Assembly: GCF_002979415.1 (NCBI RefSeq)
Contig: NZ_PCOT01000020.1
Location: 1 to 64,000 of the forward strand
Direction: 5' to 3'
Length of the DNA stretch: 64,000 bases
Source of the DNA: Microbacterium sp. MYb72
GTDB lineage: Bacteria; Actinomycetota; Actinomycetes; Actinomycetales; Microbacteriaceae
Both the position numbers and the translations under genes were made by a program. Of this stretch, positions 6,587-25,537 are shown piece by piece (position 1 is the stretch's first letter; every line of letters starts with the position of its first letter). The notes beneath the pieces were generated by a model that was not told the DNA's origin, searched no databases, and saw only the letters and a program-made list of their open reading frames with translations.

Positions 6587-7138
6587 ATGCGAGTGATCGT
6601 GATGGCCGGCACGAAAGCGTCCGGATTGATGGAGGCGAAGAACCTCGACATCGACCCGGTCGCCATCGTGACGCCGCGCTCACCGGATGCTGCGCGAGGC
6701 ATCGTCGCTGACCGCATCATGGAGGCCTCGTCGCTGACGCCTGAGATGCGCGAGAAGCTGATTGACGGCGTGACGCCCTCCATCGTCACGACTACCACTG
6801 GCATCGACATGGTCGCGGCGACCGAGAAATCGCTCGACGCCGCGTCGAAGACCCTGACCGACATGGATGCCGGCGCTATCGAAGCGCTGCGGGCGCTCGC
6901 GCGGAAGATCGATGCCTGGGATCAGATCGTCGACTGGGCGCTCGAAGACGCTGCCGAGACGAAGGGCGCGCGACCAGCAGTGCCGCAGAACGACAACGTC
7001 TCGATCTCGGCGTACCTGAAGTACTGCGATCAGCTCGGCCTCACTCCGACCGGCCGGAAGGCGCTCGGGGTGAAGGACGGGGGCGAAGGTGGCAAGAAAG
7101 CCAAGCTCCACGCGCTCCGCGGCGGCAAGTCGGCGTAG
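6587..7138 (+). CDS. terS: Terminase small subunit
   Basis: DNA-recognition subunit of the packaging motor (183 aa). The C-terminal part (SISAYLKYCDQLGLTPTGRK, then ALGVKDG) resembles P27-type small terminases, where a helical segment precedes a short basic end. The middle is helical. I chose the ATG at 6587 because AAAGGAG lies 8 nt upstream; a start at 6527 lacks this. It overlaps the large subunit by 50 nt, which supports paired function. Confidence 0.8.
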   Translation: MRVIVMAGTKASGLMEAKNLDIDPVAIVTPRSPDAARGIVADRIMEASSLTPEMREKLIDGVTPSIVTTTTGIDMVAATEKSLDAASKTLTDMDAGAIEALRALARKIDAWDQIVDWALEDAAETKGARPAVPQNDNVSISAYLKYCDQLGLTPTGRKALGVKDGGEGGKKAKLHALRGGKSA

Positions 7139-8795
7139 CGCGACCAAGGGCCCGGGTGCGGCGTACCTGAAGGCCGTCGGTGGGCCGACGCGCTCGGAGT
7201 CATTCCGCACCCGCGTCGGATGCACCGAGCCGCGCATCTGCACGCCGCCTCTGCGTGAGCTCACCCCGGCGACGTCGAAGGGCTTCGCCTGCATCGAGTT
7301 CGCCGAGGAAATCCTCGAGATCGAACTGCTGCCATGGCAACGCGCGCTGCTGATCCGCGCGCTCGAACTGAACCCCGACGGCACCTACCGTTTCAAAACC
7401 ATCCTGCTGCTCGTCGCCCGCCAGAACGGCAAGTCGACGCTGATGCAGGTGCTCGCCCTGTGGCGCATGTTCGCCGAGGGTGCACCGCTCGTCATCGGCA
7501 CAGCACAGTCACTCGACATCGCCGAGGAACAGTGGGCGGGCGCGGTCGAGATCGCCGAGGGAATCCCCGAGCTCGCCGAACTCATCCAGCACGTCGACCG
7601 CACCAACGGGAAGAAGGCGCTGCGCCTCGACTCCGGCGAGCGGTACAAAGTCGCCGCGGCATCACGTCGCGGCGGCCGCGGCCTCTCCGGAGACCTCGTG
7701 CTGCTCGACGAACTGCGTGAACATCAGAACTGGCAGGCGTGGGGCGCGGTCACCAAGACCACCATGGCGCGAAGGCTCGCGCAGATCTGGGCCGCATCCA
7801 ACGCCGGCGATATGGCCTCCGTCGTTCTCCGTCGCCTCCGCTCGCTCGCGCACCGCGCGCTTGGCTGGCCTGACGGCAAAGACGGCATGGACGACCTCGA
7901 CAAGCTCGGGGACACACAGGACGAGACGACCGAGGTCGACGACTCGCTCGGCATCTTCGAGTGGTCGTCGGCGCCCGGCCGCGACGTGTGGGATCGCGAA
8001 GGCTGGGCCGAGGCGAATCCCTCGCTCGGCTACACGATCGACCTGCGCTCGATCGCCGCCGCGGCCTCGACGGACCCCGAGTGGGTGTTCCGCACCGAGG
8101 TCATGTGCCAGTTCGTGAACATGCTCGGAACCGGACCGTTCCCGACCGGCTCATGGGCGGCCACACTTGACGCGAAGAACTACCGCATCGAGCGCGACGT
8201 CACCCGCGACCCCGACCGGCCCGCGTGCTACGGCATCGACATGTCGCACGACCGCACGATGGTTTACATCGCGCTCGCCTTCTGGGACACCGAGGGTCGG
8301 ATCCGCGGCGAGATCGTCGCGCAGCGCGCCGGCCCCGACTGGGTGCTGCCGTGGCTGCTCTCCCCGGCGAGGAAGATCGCACCGGATCGCGTCGCATTCC
8401 AGCGACGCGGCGCACCGATCTCGTCGATGTGGGGCGAGTTCGAGGACGCCGGCATCGCGGTCACGCCGTGGGGCGAGGACAAGCTCGCCGGATGGCACGG
8501 CGCCGTGTACGACATGATCCGCAAGGCCGCGACCGACGAGTCGCCGAAAGACGAGACCGAGGACGAGTTCCGCGATCGCGTGCGCATCTCGCACGGCGCA
8601 CAGCCCGTGCTCGATATCGCCGCTTCGACCGCGCAGATCAAGCCTGTGGGTGACGGCTGGGTCATCGACCGCAAGGCATCCCCGGCGGATGCCTCGCCGC
8701 TGCTGGCGTTCATCGCCGCGGTCGGCCTGCTGCAGACCAACCCGGCGCCGCCTTCGGCATCGGCCTACGAGAGCAACGACCTCATGGTCGTCTGA
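7089..8795 (+). CDS. terL: Terminase large subunit
   Basis: ATPase and nuclease that drives genome packaging (568 aa, normal length). The adenine-binding segment LLPWQRALLIRAL (about 80-92) precedes the Walker A VARQNGKST (about 109-117) and Walker B DLVLLDE (about 202-208). The RNase H-like nuclease domain begins near residue 380 with YGIDMSHDR, whose Asp is the expected first metal ligand. The start is GTG, inside the small-subunit gene. Confidence 0.95.
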   Translation: MARKPSSTRSAAASRRSATKGPGAAYLKAVGGPTRSESFRTRVGCTEPRICTPPLRELTPATSKGFACIEFAEEILEIELLPWQRALLIRALELNPDGTYRFKTILLLVARQNGKSTLMQVLALWRMFAEGAPLVIGTAQSLDIAEEQWAGAVEIAEGIPELAELIQHVDRTNGKKALRLDSGERYKVAAASRRGGRGLSGDLVLLDELREHQNWQAWGAVTKTTMARRLAQIWAASNAGDMASVVLRRLRSLAHRALGWPDGKDGMDDLDKLGDTQDETTEVDDSLGIFEWSSAPGRDVWDREGWAEANPSLGYTIDLRSIAAAASTDPEWVFRTEVMCQFVNMLGTGPFPTGSWAATLDAKNYRIERDVTRDPDRPACYGIDMSHDRTMVYIALAFWDTEGRIRGEIVAQRAGPDWVLPWLLSPARKIAPDRVAFQRRGAPISSMWGEFEDAGIAVTPWGEDKLAGWHGAVYDMIRKAATDESPKDETEDEFRDRVRISHGAQPVLDIAASTAQIKPVGDGWVIDRKASPADASPLLAFIAAVGLLQTNPAPPSASAYESNDLMVV

Positions 8796-16617: not shown

Positions 16618-18762
16618 ATGGGCTCTGCTGAGGGTGTCGAGCTCGCTACCGTCTGGCTCCGCATGGTGCCCACGATGGAGGGCGCTACTGAGAACGTCAC
16701 GAAGGCGCTACTGCCTGGCGAGAATGCAGCGGGGGAGTCCGGTAAGCGTGCGGGCTCTGAGTGGGCCGCGAAGGCGAAGGGCGCGATCGGTGTCGCCGCC
16801 GTGGGCGCCGCGATCGTCGGCACCTTCAAGGGTCTCTACGAGGTCGGTTCCATATTCGACGACGTGACCGACACCATCCGTGTCGGCACGGGCGCGCAGG
16901 GCGAAGCGCTCGACGGCCTCGTCCAGGTGGCGAAGAACGTCGGCGCAAACGTGCCCGCCTCGTTCGACAAGATCGGGTCGACCGTCGCCGACCTGAACAC
17001 CCGACTCGGCCTGAGCGGCGAGACTCTCACCACCGTCTCGGCGCAGTACCTCGAGGCGGGCCGGATTCTCGGCGAAGAAGTCGATATCAACGCGACGTCG
17101 GCCGCGTTCAATGCCTTCAAGATCGAGGGCGAAGGCGTCTCGTCCGCGATGGACACCCTCTTTCAGGTGTCGCAGGCGACGGGCGTCGGCATCAACCAGC
17201 TTGCCTCCGGTGCACAGGCCGCGGCGCCCGCGCTGCAGAACCTCGGCTTCTCGTTCGAGGAGTCGGTGTCGCTGCTCGGTTCGCTCGACAAGGCGGGTCT
17301 GAACTCGCAGCAGGTCACAGCCTCCCTCTCCAAGGGGCTCGTCACGCTCGCGAAGGCGGGCGAGGAGCCGCAGGCCGCGTTCCAGCGCGTCACCGGTGAG
17401 ATGCAGTCGTTCGTCGACAAGGGCGAGACCGCCGCGGCGCTGGACCTCGCGTCGCAGATCTTCGGTACGCGTGGCGCCGCACAGTTCGTCGGCGCGCTGC
17501 AGTCCGGCGTCGTCAACCTCGACGACCTGCAGGCGTCGGTCGGCGCGACCGGCGACACCATCCTGGGCGTCGCCGACGAGACCGCCGACTTCTCCGAACA
17601 GTGGATGGTCTTCAAGAACCGGGCGCTCACCGCGCTCGAGCCGGTCGGCACGGCGATCTTCAACGGGCTCGGCTCCGCAATGAAGTTCGTCAACAGCCTC
17701 TTCGATGACATGCCCGACCTCGGCTCCGCGTTCGGCCCGATCATCGCCACCTTCGGCGAGGTCGCGTCGGTTATCTGGGAGGCGCTCGCACCGGCGTTCG
17801 CGCAGATCTGGCAAGCGATCAGCCCGTTGCTGCCCGTGCTGCTGGATCTGTGGATGTCGGTCTCTCCGGTCATGCTGATCTTCCAGGCGCTCGAGCCGAT
17901 GCTGCCGATGCTCGCGTCGCTGTTCGGTCAGCTCGCCTCGGTCATCGGGCAGGCTCTCGGAGCTGCGCTCCCGCCGATCGTGTCGCTGATGACCACCCTC
18001 GGGGGCATCCTCGGGACGCTGTTCGAGGCACTCATCCCCGTGGTGACGACACTCGTTTCGGCACTGTTCCCGATCATCGAGGCTCTTATCCCCGTGGTCG
18101 TCGGCCTGCTCGCCGCGTTCGCTCCGCTCATCGGCGCACTCGTAGAAGCGCTCGCACCGATCCTCACCTCGGTCGCCGAGATCGTCGGCATGATCCTCGT
18201 CCCGGTGTTCAACCTGATCGCGACCGTCATCACTGCCCTCGCGGGTGTCATCACCTGGCTCGTGAACACGATCATCGTGCCGCTGTTCAACGGGTTCGTG
18301 ATCCCGGTCGTGAAGGAAGTCGGCCGGATCTTCACGGACGTCTTCAGCGGCCTGGGCAGCTTCTTCGAGGGCATCTGGGCGGGCATCCGGAACACCTTCA
18401 AGGGGTTCATCAACTTCATCATCGACGGGATCAACGGGTTCATCGGCGGCCTCAACGAGGTCGGGAACTTCGTCTCCGATGTGACCGGCGGAACGATCGA
18501 CTTCTCGATCGGCAAGATCCCTCGTCTCGCCGACGGGGCGACGATCCTCCCGCGCTCGGGTGGCACTCTCGCGGTGCTCGCCGAAGCAGGTCGACCGGAA
18601 TCCGTGGTCGACACGGGGCTGATGAACCAGGCGCTCGAAGAGGGCATCTCCGGAAACCAGCCTGCTGGCGTGACGCAGCACATAACGCTCAAGACCAACG
18701 ACCCGCGTCTCGCGATTCGGCAGTTGGGGCGTGAGGCGCAGAGAGGGCTCGCGGCATCATGA
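16618..18762 (+). CDS. Tape measure protein
   Basis: Sets tail length and is extruded during DNA delivery. At 714 aa it is short for the family, predicting a short tail. The N-terminal half carries the phage minor-tail/TP901-type region (DDVTDTIRVGTGAQGEALDG; LSKGLVTLAKAGEEPQAAFQ). The middle holds several long hydrophobic segments (residues about 360-560), and the C-terminus has GTLAVLAEAGRPESVVDTGL, common in tape measure proteins. The next gene overlaps by 4 nt. Confidence 0.92.
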   Translation: MGSAEGVELATVWLRMVPTMEGATENVTKALLPGENAAGESGKRAGSEWAAKAKGAIGVAAVGAAIVGTFKGLYEVGSIFDDVTDTIRVGTGAQGEALDGLVQVAKNVGANVPASFDKIGSTVADLNTRLGLSGETLTTVSAQYLEAGRILGEEVDINATSAAFNAFKIEGEGVSSAMDTLFQVSQATGVGINQLASGAQAAAPALQNLGFSFEESVSLLGSLDKAGLNSQQVTASLSKGLVTLAKAGEEPQAAFQRVTGEMQSFVDKGETAAALDLASQIFGTRGAAQFVGALQSGVVNLDDLQASVGATGDTILGVADETADFSEQWMVFKNRALTALEPVGTAIFNGLGSAMKFVNSLFDDMPDLGSAFGPIIATFGEVASVIWEALAPAFAQIWQAISPLLPVLLDLWMSVSPVMLIFQALEPMLPMLASLFGQLASVIGQALGAALPPIVSLMTTLGGILGTLFEALIPVVTTLVSALFPIIEALIPVVVGLLAAFAPLIGALVEALAPILTSVAEIVGMILVPVFNLIATVITALAGVITWLVNTIIVPLFNGFVIPVVKEVGRIFTDVFSGLGSFFEGIWAGIRNTFKGFINFIIDGINGFIGGLNEVGNFVSDVTGGTIDFSIGKIPRLADGATILPRSGGTLAVLAEAGRPESVVDTGLMNQALEEGISGNQPAGVTQHITLKTNDPRLAIRQLGREAQRGLAAS

Positions 18763-21275: not shown

Positions 21276-22307
21276 GTGGTACTGACTCGATCATTCCCCA
21301 CGCAGCACCCTTCGGGGCTGCCGATCACCGACACCCGTCGCGTCGCAGCTGCCCTCGTCGCGCGCAACGCGGACGGCACTCCGCGAGCCGGAGTCTTCCC
21401 CGCGAACGCGAATCCTCTTGTCACGGGCCGAGCCTCCATGGGCTACGACGTCGCCCCGTTCCTTGCGGCCACGTCGCGGATCAACAACGGCGTGGAGCTC
21501 ATCGCAAACGATGCGGTCACGGTCGTCGCCACGACGGCCGCACCGGCATCGAACTCTCGCATCGACGTCATCTGGGTTCGATCGCAGTTCGTGCAGCACG
21601 CGGACGCGAACAACGACGTCGTCTTCGGAGTGACACAGGGCACCCCTGCAGGGATTCCGGCGAAGCCAGCGATCCCGCAGGGGGCGCTCGAGCTCGCCAC
21701 GGCGGAGATCACGTCCACGACTACGACCACCGCGACAGCCGTCATCACCCAGACGCACACCTATACGGCGGCTGCAGGAGCCGCGGTGCAGATGCGCAAT
21801 CGTGTCGAGCTGGATGCCTGGGCGGCGCCCGTGGGGGCCACCGCCCGGACCTTGGACACGGACCTCGAGTGGGTCCGACGGTCGTCACCGTCGCTTGGCT
21901 GGTACCTCGCACCAGGGCAACGCCTCGCCTACATGGCTTCTGCGGTCACGAACGGCAACGCAAACACCATCATCGGCACCGTCGCGAAGACCATCCCCCT
22001 GCCGATCGGGCAGCGGGTGAAGATCTACTGCAAACCGGTCAGTATGTACGTCGCGGCCGCCGCCGGCATCGTGTACTACTCGATCCGCGCCACCAACGCC
22101 GCCGCCGACATCTCGCCGTCGACCGTCTCGCCGAAGAAGACCACGTCACGGGGGATGCACCCCGGCTCCAGTGGCGTCACCTCCGTTCCGGGCACGGCCA
22201 TGGAGATGGTGACAACGCAGGCGCAGCCAGTCTCGGCTGCGCTGTTCAACGAGTTCGGTGTGACGTACGACGTGGACGGGCAAGAGCTTTGGATCGAGGC
22301 CGCCTGA
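21276..22307 (+). CDS. Minor tail protein, possible host-contact protein (343 aa)
   Basis: GTG start with GAGGAGG upstream. The protein is beta-rich with a Thr-rich stretch (TSTTTTTATAVI) in the middle and a distinct C-terminal domain (VSMYVAAAAGIVYYSIRATN). It is the last structural gene before lysis, where receptor-binding proteins often lie, so it is a candidate for host specificity. This is inference from order. Confidence 0.7.
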   Translation: MVLTRSFPTQHPSGLPITDTRRVAAALVARNADGTPRAGVFPANANPLVTGRASMGYDVAPFLAATSRINNGVELIANDAVTVVATTAAPASNSRIDVIWVRSQFVQHADANNDVVFGVTQGTPAGIPAKPAIPQGALELATAEITSTTTTTATAVITQTHTYTAAAGAAVQMRNRVELDAWAAPVGATARTLDTDLEWVRRSSPSLGWYLAPGQRLAYMASAVTNGNANTIIGTVAKTIPLPIGQRVKIYCKPVSMYVAAAAGIVYYSIRATNAAADISPSTVSPKKTTSRGMHPGSSGVTSVPGTAMEMVTTQAQPVSAALFNEFGVTYDVDGQELWIEAA

Positions 22308-23146
22308 TGAGCACCCTGCGTTTCGCCGGCTCGGCGTACAACTCAGCCGCAGGTACCCGAGATGCGTTCGGGCGTCTCTCCGACGATCTTGTCGCCGAGG
22401 GGCTGCCCGCGATGGTCGTCCTGGACGGCGACCGCGAGAAGGCCGACCAACTGCGCATCTGGTACCAGCGGATGACACTCAACCCGGGCGGCCGCAAGGT
22501 CTACGGCACTGCGTGGTGGAACGGGCAGAAGTGGTACCGCATCCACCCCGACGCCGTCGGCGTCCCGGACACGAGCAACCACGAGAAGCGACGCGCGGAC
22601 GATCTCGCGTGGCCGTACAACTCGGACACCGCCGCGCACCGCCGAGCCCAGGTGCTCGCGAAGCGACACAACATCACCTGCGAAGGCATGGGCTTTCGCG
22701 AGTGGTGGCACTGGACCTTCTGGGGTCCGCTCGGCACCATCGGCGCACCCGCCGGCGGGACCGGATCAACCACAGCACCACCCCCTATCCAGTCCGAGGA
22801 GGACGACATGGCTGTACTCGTGACCGGTGGCGGTCAGAATCTCATCGTCGGCGGGAAGCTCATTCCGCTGACCCCCGCGGACGTCGGAGCCGTCAAGGGT
22901 GCCCAGGTGCTGGAGGTCACCCCGAACACGCACTACAACATCATCCAGGCGTTCGCGCGTGACACCGCGAACTCGGCCCTCCCGGTGCTCGTGTACGTGC
23001 ACGACGGGGACGGCACCGTGTACGCGCTCAGCGACGGGAAGCTCCGAGCCCTCGTCGACCCCACAACCCTCGCCGCGCTGCACGCGCAGGGCGCCGCATC
23101 GGTGACCCTCTCGAAGGCCGAGGTCGACAACCTCATCAAGAGCTGA
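22307..23146 (+). CDS. Endolysin, M15-family peptidase
   Basis: Cleaves peptidoglycan stem peptides at lysis. Residues 1-145 form a VanY/M15-type zinc peptidase: DTSNHEKRRADDLAWP supplies H92 and D98/D99, and EWWHW supplies E132 and H135. A Gly/Thr/Pro linker (about 147-165) leads to a C-terminal domain of roughly 110 residues (AVLVTGGGQNLIVGGKLIPL) likely to bind the cell wall. The ATG overlaps the preceding stop (TGATG). Confidence 0.88.
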   Translation: MSTLRFAGSAYNSAAGTRDAFGRLSDDLVAEGLPAMVVLDGDREKADQLRIWYQRMTLNPGGRKVYGTAWWNGQKWYRIHPDAVGVPDTSNHEKRRADDLAWPYNSDTAAHRRAQVLAKRHNITCEGMGFREWWHWTFWGPLGTIGAPAGGTGSTTAPPPIQSEEDDMAVLVTGGGQNLIVGGKLIPLTPADVGAVKGAQVLEVTPNTHYNIIQAFARDTANSALPVLVYVHDGDGTVYALSDGKLRALVDPTTLAALHAQGAASVTLSKAEVDNLIKS

Positions 23147-23983: not shown

Positions 23984-24023
23984 AGAAAACCCCCACCCGG
24001 CTTCGGCTGGGTGGGGGTTTTCT
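23984..24023 (+). terminator. Bidirectional terminator ending the phage late operon
   Basis: AGAAAACCCCCACCC and its exact complement GGGTGGGGGTTTTCT form a 15-bp stem with a GGCTTCGGCT-type top, and A and T runs lie on both sides. It separates the rightward holin gene from the leftward Ltp-like gene and should stop both transcripts. Confidence 0.92.
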
Positions 24024-24039: not shown

Positions 24040-24891
24040 TCAGTACCCGACAGCGGCGAGACCGAACTCAATCTCGGCAGGTTGGAAGCCTTCGAACGCG
24101 AGCTGGTCAGAGAGGCTCTGCCGAGAGAAGGACGACATGTCCATGTAGGACTGTGCTTTCTGCGCGCACTCGGCGTTCCAGTCGGCGCCGGCATTGTCTG
24201 CGCCGAACGTCGCGTCCTCGGTGCTGAAGCCCTCGAATTCGAGCTGGTGGATCAGCCCCGATCGGGAGAAGCCGGAGAAGCTCAGATAACTCTGCGCTTT
24301 GCCGATCGCGTTCTGCTGGCCGAGGGTGAGCTTCGGCTTCTCTTCCACGACTATCGAGATCGCTGCGCCGTTGGTCGCGGCGGAACCTGCGGTGCGGCTC
24401 GTCGAGACGACGAGTGCGGTCGGATCCACGAATGTGGAAAGCGCCGGGGGGGTGAGTCCGGCCTCGGTGAGCACGACGATCGCGTCCGAGACGGGGATCC
24501 CGACGACGTCGGGGACAACGATGCTCGGGGCTGCTTCTTCTTCGGCGGCGGGTTCAGCGGCCGTCGTCGGTTGGGGGTCCGCTGCGGGTGCGTCGTCCTT
24601 GTTGCCGAGTCCGAGCGCGCTGCCGATACTGCCAACGAGGATCACGCCGGCGGCGATGGATCCGCCGATGATCCACTTCTTCTTCGCGGGCATCTTCGCC
24701 TTGGTGGTGGCTTCAGCTTCGGTCGGTGTTGCGGCGTCGTCGGGGACGGCTGCGGCCGTCGGGTAGGCATCGGTGGCGACGTCGGACGGAGCGGGCTCCG
24801 GTTCGAGCCACTGCGTGCCATCCCAGTAGCGCTGCTCGTTGTTGGCGTGCGGTGCCGGGTACCAACCGGCGGCGGGGGTCGGGTCTGACAT
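24040..24891 (-). CDS. Ltp-type surface protein with DUF2510 and PASTA domains (likely superinfection exclusion)
   Basis: A 283-aa protein. Residues 9-28 are a DUF2510 motif (GWYPAP, then YWDGTQW); 73-93 form a membrane helix after a basic KKKW; 123-183 resemble a PASTA domain (VPDVVGIPVSDAIVVLTEAG). Two tandem repeats at 190-235 and 238-283 (NAIGKAQSYLSFSGFSR with QLEFEGF, and ECAQKAQSYMDMSSFSR with QLAFEGF) match the helical repeats of host surface-exposed Ltp lipoproteins. Ltp of phage TP-J34 blocks DNA injection by related phages. Here the lipobox is replaced by a membrane anchor, and PASTA would hold the repeats at the wall. Reverse orientation after the holin is typical of a lysogenic-conversion gene. 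The ATG at 24891 has GAGAGGAA upstream. Confidence 0.85.
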   Translation of the reverse strand: MSDPTPAAGWYPAPHANNEQRYWDGTQWLEPEPAPSDVATDAYPTAAAVPDDAATPTEAEATTKAKMPAKKKWIIGGSIAAGVILVGSIGSALGLGNKDDAPAADPQPTTAAEPAAEEEAAPSIVVPDVVGIPVSDAIVVLTEAGLTPPALSTFVDPTALVVSTSRTAGSAATNGAAISIVVEEKPKLTLGQQNAIGKAQSYLSFSGFSRSGLIHQLEFEGFSTEDATFGADNAGADWNAECAQKAQSYMDMSSFSRQSLSDQLAFEGFQPAEIEFGLAAVGY

Positions 24892-24971: not shown

Positions 24972-25107
24972 CATTCAGTGGAGGAACGTTATGAATCGGT
25001 TTCGGCCGAGGCGAGCTCCACGGCGTTGCCCCACACCCAACAGCGGAACGTCTGCCCGTCGGGCGCGGAACTCGATCCCGGCGGCGAGCGGCGTGGAGCG
25101 GACGAGC

Positions 25108-25251
25108 TTAGATCGTCATCGGTTGCTCACGCACGTCCATCTCGCGATCGGTGAGCGATTGCAACGGGCCGTGCTTCGCGGCGTCGAGGATCGATCGCGC
25201 CTGCGATTGCATGTCGCGGTACGCGGAGAGCGTCGCCCCAGGGTTCCCCAT
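25108..25251 (-). CDS. Small unknown prophage gene next to attR (47 aa)
   Basis: The minus-strand ATG at 25251 is preceded by GGAGGAAGGA and, about 33 nt further up, by a TAGAAT -10 box (25290-25285). The product is a soluble, charged helical protein (ATLSAYRDMQSQARSILDAA; LTDREMDVREQ). Downstream, another minus-strand frame ending at 24989 reads SAPDGQTFRCWVWGNAVELA without a usable start; it may be a decayed gene. No family recognised. Confidence 0.42.
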   Translation of the reverse strand: MGNPGATLSAYRDMQSQARSILDAAKHGPLQSLTDREMDVREQPMTI

Positions 25252-25510: not shown

Positions 25511-25537
25511 GTAGAGTTCGAGTCCCGTAGTCGGCTC
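25511..25537 (+). other. attR: Prophage right attachment site: displaced tRNA 3' end
   Basis: TTCGAGTCCCGTAGTCGGCT reads as the T-loop, the T-stem 3' half (CCCGT), the acceptor 3' half (AGTCGGC) and discriminator T of a tRNA, but the bases to the left cannot pair with it and no tRNA 5' half exists here. This is what a phage that integrated into a tRNA leaves at its distal end. The acceptor AGTCGGC with T73 suggests tRNA-Thr. Coding style also changes from phage genes to chromosomal genes at this point. Confidence 0.6.

Follow-up and report, generated by a model that had tools for sequence, protein, structure and literature searches.

A membrane-anchored Ltp-domain protein at the right end of a Microbacterium prophage, probably serving superinfection exclusion, and its largely chromosomal family

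The window (the whole stretch of 64,000 nucleotides that was analysed, which is the beginning of contig C13 of Microbacterium sp. MYb72) carries a gene, here called ltp (24040..24891, minus strand, ATG start), that encodes a protein of 283 aa at the right end of a prophage. Sequence comparison confirmed that this protein consists of a DUF2510 motif, one membrane helix, one PASTA domain and two Ltp repeats. It is considered probable that it is a membrane-anchored variant of Ltp, acting in lysogenic conversion from the attR end and excluding other phages. As judged from the genomes searched, the ltp family is largely chromosomal in Microbacterium, and partly located beside restriction systems.

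Domain architecture and fold

The repeats had been assigned to the Ltp family in an earlier note made from the letters alone, which proposed a profile search as a means of disproving the assignment; this search returned Lipoprotein_Ltp (PF07553) over two stretches, with 81.3 bits (5.5e-23) against a cut-off of 23.2. The two repeats occupy residues about 192-280 (24052..24318, minus strand). The DUF2510 motif covers residues 8-30 (24802..24870, minus strand; 34.8 bits, cut-off 24) and is predicted to be cytoplasmic, and the PASTA domain, at Pfam residues 125-183 (24343..24519, minus strand), scored 23.8 bits, barely above its cut-off of 23.2. PHROG families labelled "superinfection exclusion" matched the protein at 7e-43 and 2e-25, and matches to NCBIfam were all under the cut-offs. 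PADLOC gave one weak match (PD-T4-6, 3.6e-4, residues 49-187), which we take to reflect the PASTA part.

Among solved structures the sole sequence match was TP-J34 Ltp (4EQQ, E 9e-9). The AlphaFold model, based on an alignment of ten sequences, contains a PASTA-like strand-helix-strands unit (pLDDT blocks 80-93) and two three-helix units corresponding to the Ltp repeats (pLDDT blocks 85-96), residues 34-118 including the helix being below 50. Foldseek placed 4EQQ first (5.5e-6), followed by the PASTA domains of PBP1 (1.7e-2) and PknB (5.8e-2); of eight fold matches below 0.001 among viral models, five were named "Host cell surface-exposed lipoprotein" and one, from a Gordonia phage, "Lipoprotein". 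The Ltp repeat region (residues 190-283) has a net charge of -8 and was negatively charged in all 33 relatives measured, as reported for the acidic repeats of Ltp (PMC3952083, PMC5137146). The linker is acidic as well (net -6).

Membrane anchor and topology

No lipobox was found in the 283-aa protein, whose sole cysteine is residue 242, and by this criterion it was classed as an Ltp-domain protein, not as an Ltp lipoprotein. The best 19-residue hydropathy of the single helix (residues 73-93; 24613..24675, minus strand; low AlphaFold confidence) is 1.88, slightly under the protein maximum of 1.92 reached by a stretch inside PASTA, so that the membrane call depends on position and flanking lysines. 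Since three lysines precede the helix, the N-terminus is predicted inside, which would put PASTA and the Ltp repeats outside. The domain string read in the earlier note was recovered by Pfam, by the model and by the helix after KKK. Its wall-anchored design was not borne out in this form, since the anchor supported by the sequence is the membrane helix; wall or peptidoglycan binding by the single PASTA domain is at most presumed.

Position in the prophage

The prophage context claimed in the earlier note was substantiated by PHROG matches to large terminase (7089..8795, plus strand), portal, major head, tape measure (16618..18762, plus strand) and minor tail proteins, together with an attachment site. 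The attR core, delimited by comparison with relatives, is a 20-base copy of the 3' end of tRNA-Thr(tgt) at 25517..25536. Other copies in the genome lie at C3:57-76, where the core ends an intact tRNA-Thr at the contig edge, and at C51:2-21, at the contig start, followed by genes for an integrase and a repressor-like protein. From the core shared with C3 and C51 we infer that 25536 is the right-hand limit of the prophage, a siphovirus, and that C51 contains the opposite end. The ltp gene is the last intact gene found ahead of this right end.

The earlier note described a leftward gene standing alone after a holin terminator. The minus strand and an inverted repeat agree with this (18 nt, 94%, 4 nt between the arms; 23984..24023), the latter lying between the convergent putative holin gene and ltp as a possible terminator common to both, although it was absent from the output of the terminator scan. 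The gene is not strictly alone, a degraded small ORF split across two frames being located upstream (24989..25251, minus strand). This ORF is a relative of a 108-aa ORF that is intact upstream of ltp in a viral contig (L044:110-436) and also occurs upstream in G117 (L078); the 108-aa ORF was matched neither by Pfam nor by PADLOC, and tblastn detected no Ltp repeat in eight further Microbacterium stretches containing it. A promoter scan for ltp found no promoter-like site.

A 279-aa gene in lysis position (window 22307-23146, plus strand), with no PHROG match, could be a peptidase-type endolysin, judged by eye. At the tRNA-Thr site of M. maritypicum MF109 (L036 5000-11200), three copies of the attachment core, a truncated ltp copy and repeated pieces resembling window 25.0-25.5 kb were observed, which are probably the remains of serial integration.

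Viral-contig homologues and selection

The earlier note had suggested looking for the same domain string in other prophages, and two viral contigs do carry it, their Ltp proteins being 88 and 89% identical to that of the window. In both contigs, as in the window prophage, ltp adjoins the putative holin gene or a relative of it. Whole-gene dN/dS was 0.09 and 0.12 for the window against the two homologues and 0.07-0.12 across the three pairs. By region, the three pairs gave 0.00-0.02 for residues 1-33 (DUF2510; 21 synonymous sites only), 0.03-0.04 each for PASTA and Ltp, and 0.25-0.31 for the linker and helix. These alignments show purifying selection on the folded modules, with dN/dS below 0.05 in all three; PASTA and DUF2510, constrained about like the Ltp repeats, are therefore probably more than space-fillers.

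The earlier note had also suggested looking for co-occurrence with tape measure types. Co-variation of the Ltp protein with its own tape measure was rejected: compared with the tape measure protein of the window, that of one viral contig has 98% identity and that of the other only 24% over 377 aa (714 vs 1111 aa in length). The Ltp protein, kept at nearly the same identity in both, is thus not tied to its own tape measure, as expected if other phages are the target. The tape measure of the prophage itself lacks a positive C-terminus, which neither supports nor excludes another target.

Distribution and phylogeny of the family

Among 198 Microbacterium genomes, 104 had some match, many of them to the DUF2510 end alone. 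Matches at E 1e-15 or better that extended into the Ltp region were counted as Ltp places, of which there were at least 39, window included, with up to 12 candidates scored per genome. In the 32 genus proteins scanned (window and one fragment included), Ltp was found in 32, PASTA in 27 (matches at E 0.01) and DUF2510 in 25. A search of 398 Microbacteriaceae genomes at 1e-15 gave matches in 25, 22 of them outside Microbacterium; the 22 proteins from the latter had Ltp in all cases, TM2 in 9, DUF2510 in 5 and PASTA in 1. All 80 viral relatives had Ltp, with PASTA in 3, DUF2510 in 2 (the two viral contigs described above), choline-binding repeats in 2 and an Ig-like domain in 1. Given these differing anchor domains across the genus, family and viral sets, the Ltp repeats are, at the level of sequence, the core of the family and the anchors exchangeable, and the four-part string appears mainly to be a Microbacterium design within the sequences searched.

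The surroundings of 33 of these places were read, leaving out G003:C118, G093, G063, G057, G156 and G015. They comprise 10 restriction loci, G169:C12, 3 prophages and 19 others. The prophage places are the window itself, G074, where a tail protein matches PF10145, and G084, assigned by visual recognition of tail-like genes and by a match of 28% to the tape measure of the window. In both G074 (L085) and G084 (L107), the Ltp gene adjoins a Val-Cys-Gly-Val tRNA cluster, which is a probable further attachment site. In 18 of the 33 surroundings no defence or phage gene was recognised, most neighbours being judged by eye and not by profiles. In G179, a gene with a PADLOC HEC-05 match (5e-30) lies a few kb from the Ltp gene. 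From the other Microbacteriaceae, 20 stretches from the 22 genomes were read by eye, and no defence or phage gene was recognised in 15; the caller had missed the Ltp gene in L153, L155, L157, L161 and L166, of which L155 was re-read. The chromosomal copies in L034, L040, L080 and L033 adjoin other DUF2510 proteins, one of which is related in all four.

In a tree of 36 proteins, rooted at midpoint, the window protein groups with its two viral-contig homologues (100/99) inside a set of nine (100/99), the other six of which come from loci without recognised phage genes. This nesting fits capture of a chromosomal ltp gene by a phage lineage, which is considered the most likely direction. The proteins of the restriction loci require two changes on the best tree, one origin being also allowed. 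The design is not specific to prophages, a point on which the reading of the earlier note was too narrow: its origin as a prophage-only invention was rejected in view of this tree and of the far greater frequency of PASTA and DUF2510 in the genus proteins than in the viral relatives, prophages accounting for 3 of the 33 surroundings.

Linkage to restriction and other defence loci

In L081 (G028), ltp is flanked by the hsdS and hsdR genes of a type I system. Its HsdM, HsdS and HsdR were identified by PADLOC and Pfam, and the other loci by BLAST against these. The L081 HsdR query returned 17 genes in the 198 Microbacterium genomes at 1e-60, of which 11 form one group (identity 64% or more; G175 has only the hsdR end). 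An ltp gene neighbours 10 of these 11 (G028, G067, G175, G013, G102, G003, G163, G169, G138 and G023), at 1.1-5.7 kb start to start, the exception being G070, where a type IV-like restriction gene occupies the slot. A tblastn search over 18.5 kb found no Ltp repeat in G070 or at the six other hsdR loci (49-52%). An hsdM gene was recognised in eight of the ten stretches, but not in G067 nor on the 4.8-kb contig of G003, and in the assemblies of G003 and G023 the Ltp reading frame is broken in its front part.

Random placement would give 0.06 hsdR-ltp pairs (Poisson 2e-19), a value that assumes independent positions, violated by related loci, and that serves only to exclude chance placement. The ten loci are related by descent and not independent; across eight loci, HsdR identity is positively correlated with Ltp identity (Mantel r 0.60, p 0.008), as expected for a jointly inherited module. 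PF02384 methylase genes (1e-30) were present in 76 of the 198 genomes; a counted Ltp place is found no more than 10 kb from eight of these genes, which all belong to the same hsdR group, and about 12 kb from one further gene, in G116. The window genome had no PF02384 match at 1e-30 and no L081 HsdR match at 1e-60, and its ltp, unlike that of the ten relatives, is located in a prophage with no hsdR neighbour.

Two further contexts were recorded. In G169:C12, ltp is flanked by genes resembling ThsA (1e-24) and MkoA (2e-19). In another genus (G227, L155), hsdM, hsdS, hsdR and a PADLOC Orf5-type gene (Orf5 5e-125; type IV restriction models 4e-32; GmrSD-like by our reading) are followed by an Ltp protein with another anchor, namely a TM2-like start before three Ltp repeats, counted by eye; this hsdR resembles the first only in a helicase stretch (24% over 209 aa). 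Such linkage supports, through guilt by association between neighbouring genes, an anti-phage role of the Ltp repeats.

Comparison with known Ltp proteins

TP-J34 Ltp (4EQQ; PF07553) has in common with the 283-aa protein two acidic C-terminal three-helix repeats behind a spacer, and is prophage-encoded. It differs in being a lipoprotein with a Ser-rich spacer, and is described as functioning lipid-anchored (PMC3952083); lipid and spacer are replaced in the 283-aa protein by the helix with DUF2510 inside and PASTA outside. Ltp reportedly prevents DNA injection, a form without the lipid anchor acting against more phages, and Ltp exclusion has been characterised in phages that infect streptococci and lactococci. 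In two recent surveys of defence in S. thermophilus, Ltp is mentioned as prophage-encoded (PMC11514479, PMC12322248).

The premise of the earlier note that Ltp proteins are lipoproteins proved too broad. CbpL of Streptococcus pneumoniae has a C-terminal Ltp domain and is wall-attached, without a lipobox and not a lipoprotein; its choline-binding and Excalibur modules follow a leader peptide, no PASTA or DUF2510 is described in the available sections, and it is studied there for, and contributes to, host interaction rather than phage exclusion (PMC5137146). Corynebacterium phage phi16 gp34 (APQ42537.1), whose gene adjoins the integrase gene and which is annotated "putative super infection exclusion protein", shows by eye the same N-terminal tail, KKK, one helix, linker and two Ltp-like repeats, but is 180 aa long, without DUF2510, PASTA or lipobox by eye. 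Among the 80 viral relatives, the lipobox pattern, which is loose and was applied with start codons unchecked, fits 27.

Other actinophages also encode Ltp repeats. The best eleven records of Gordonia phage proteins are 52-59% identical; those of Kwekel, Tangerine and Sour (169-187 aa) have no PASTA or DUF2510 by eye, and a lipobox-like Cys is present in Kwekel and Sour and absent from Tangerine. A protein of P. freudenreichii phages PFR1 and PFR2 is given as 44-47% identical to Ltp over about 140 aa, a clear match, and C. acnes phage gp41 is proposed, on weak similarity, as Ltp-like (PMC11480721). A PF07553 gene of Gordonia phage GTE6 was deemed unexpected for a lytic phage (PMC4524720).

In the open-licence literature, no paper naming DUF2510 was found, nor any dealing jointly with superinfection exclusion, type I restriction and PASTA; the only match for phage, PASTA domain and superinfection was unrelated by title and abstract, and no title on the DUF2510-helix-PASTA-Ltp architecture was among the matches listed. 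A wall-attached, non-lipoprotein Ltp protein is already known from CbpL.

Proposed function and alternatives

In the proposed mechanism, one helix would hold the protein in the cytoplasmic membrane with its N-terminus and DUF2510 inside, and the disordered acidic linker and PASTA would carry the two acidic Ltp repeats outward into the wall, the helix substituting for the lipid, and PASTA for part of the spacer, of TP-J34 Ltp. By analogy with TP-J34 Ltp, when a second phage injects its DNA the repeats would bind something released from its tail, most likely the tape measure protein; DNA passage would be stopped and the lysogen would thereby exclude other phages. The gene would most likely have been taken from the chromosomal Microbacterium family, some members of which are found in defence loci. 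The scheme presumes that the gene is expressed in the lysogen, that injection is blocked and that the tape measure protein is the target. Counted in favour of exclusion were the PF07553, 4EQQ and PHROG matches, the acidic repeats, the conservation beside the putative holin gene, the type I restriction-modification loci, G169:C12, L155 and the prophage copies of G074 and G084. Counted against it were the missing lipid anchor of the characterised Ltp, the 18 Microbacterium and 15 other loci without a recognised defence or phage gene, the absence of a promoter-like site in the scan, the descent-related hsdR loci, with interrupted frames in G003 and G023 and a partial hsdR in G175, and the role in host interaction described for CbpL (PMC5137146).

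Several of these points would fit a general envelope protein whose Ltp repeats attach to some constituent of the wall or surface and which serves adhesion, wall upkeep or stress, being for the phage a fitness gene and not an exclusion gene. Its neighbours at the loci just mentioned, judged by eye, are metabolic, housekeeping or unrecognised, and CbpL contributes to host interaction. This reading is somewhat unlikely given that relatives accompany restriction or other defence genes in several unrelated settings, and given the patchy presence across Microbacterium and the conservation in phages with differing tape measures. PASTA, found by Foldseek as well, is familiar from wall-sensing kinases and PBPs, which also suits such a protein.

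Extending exclusion to the chromosomal copies, one may imagine an actinobacterial envelope defence protein forming an outer layer that slows or blocks DNA entry, the type I enzyme cutting what enters and DUF2510 linking entry to a cytoplasmic partner, with phages having captured the outer layer for superinfection exclusion; this broader scheme is unlikely.

It is very unlikely that the protein is a transmembrane sensor, in which the outside Ltp and PASTA parts detect a tail or wall damage and DUF2510 signals to a partner inside, excluding phages by signalling instead of plugging. The predicted inside DUF2510 is constrained at least like the Ltp repeats (over few sites), is frequent in the genus relatives and has neighbouring DUF2510 proteins at several loci. 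However, the inside part is exchangeable, TM2 being more frequent than DUF2510 in the other Microbacteriaceae; there is no known partner, and TP-J34 Ltp functions lipid-anchored (PMC3952083). That ltp is carried along or decaying at the end of the prophage, without any function today, is highly improbable: the adjacent small ORF is broken and the copy that M. maritypicum MF109 has at this tRNA-Thr site is truncated, but decay was rejected by the ORF being intact in the window and both viral contigs and by the whole-gene dN/dS of 0.07-0.12.

A membrane-anchored Ltp form with a wall-type domain is found as a chromosomal gene of an actinobacterial genus, beside hsdR in one group, and a differently anchored relative adjoins an unrelated restriction system in another genus. 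The largely chromosomal nature of the family in Microbacterium, and the ltp neighbour of 10 of the 11 hsdR genes of one type I group, are new here. If the function is true, entry exclusion would also be part of chromosomal defence loci and not a prophage trait only.

Other cargo at the restriction loci

The gap before hsdR (L096, L105, L115) also holds other cargo, namely a type IV-like gene (G070, G023) and a PDC-S14 gene (G169). PADLOC gave no match for two neighbours of the G011 copy of ltp or for one of the G025 copy. In G011 (L098 5258-8720), whose flanks match the G169 restriction locus, two large genes adjoin ltp in replacement of the hsd genes, and these are possibly new defence genes.
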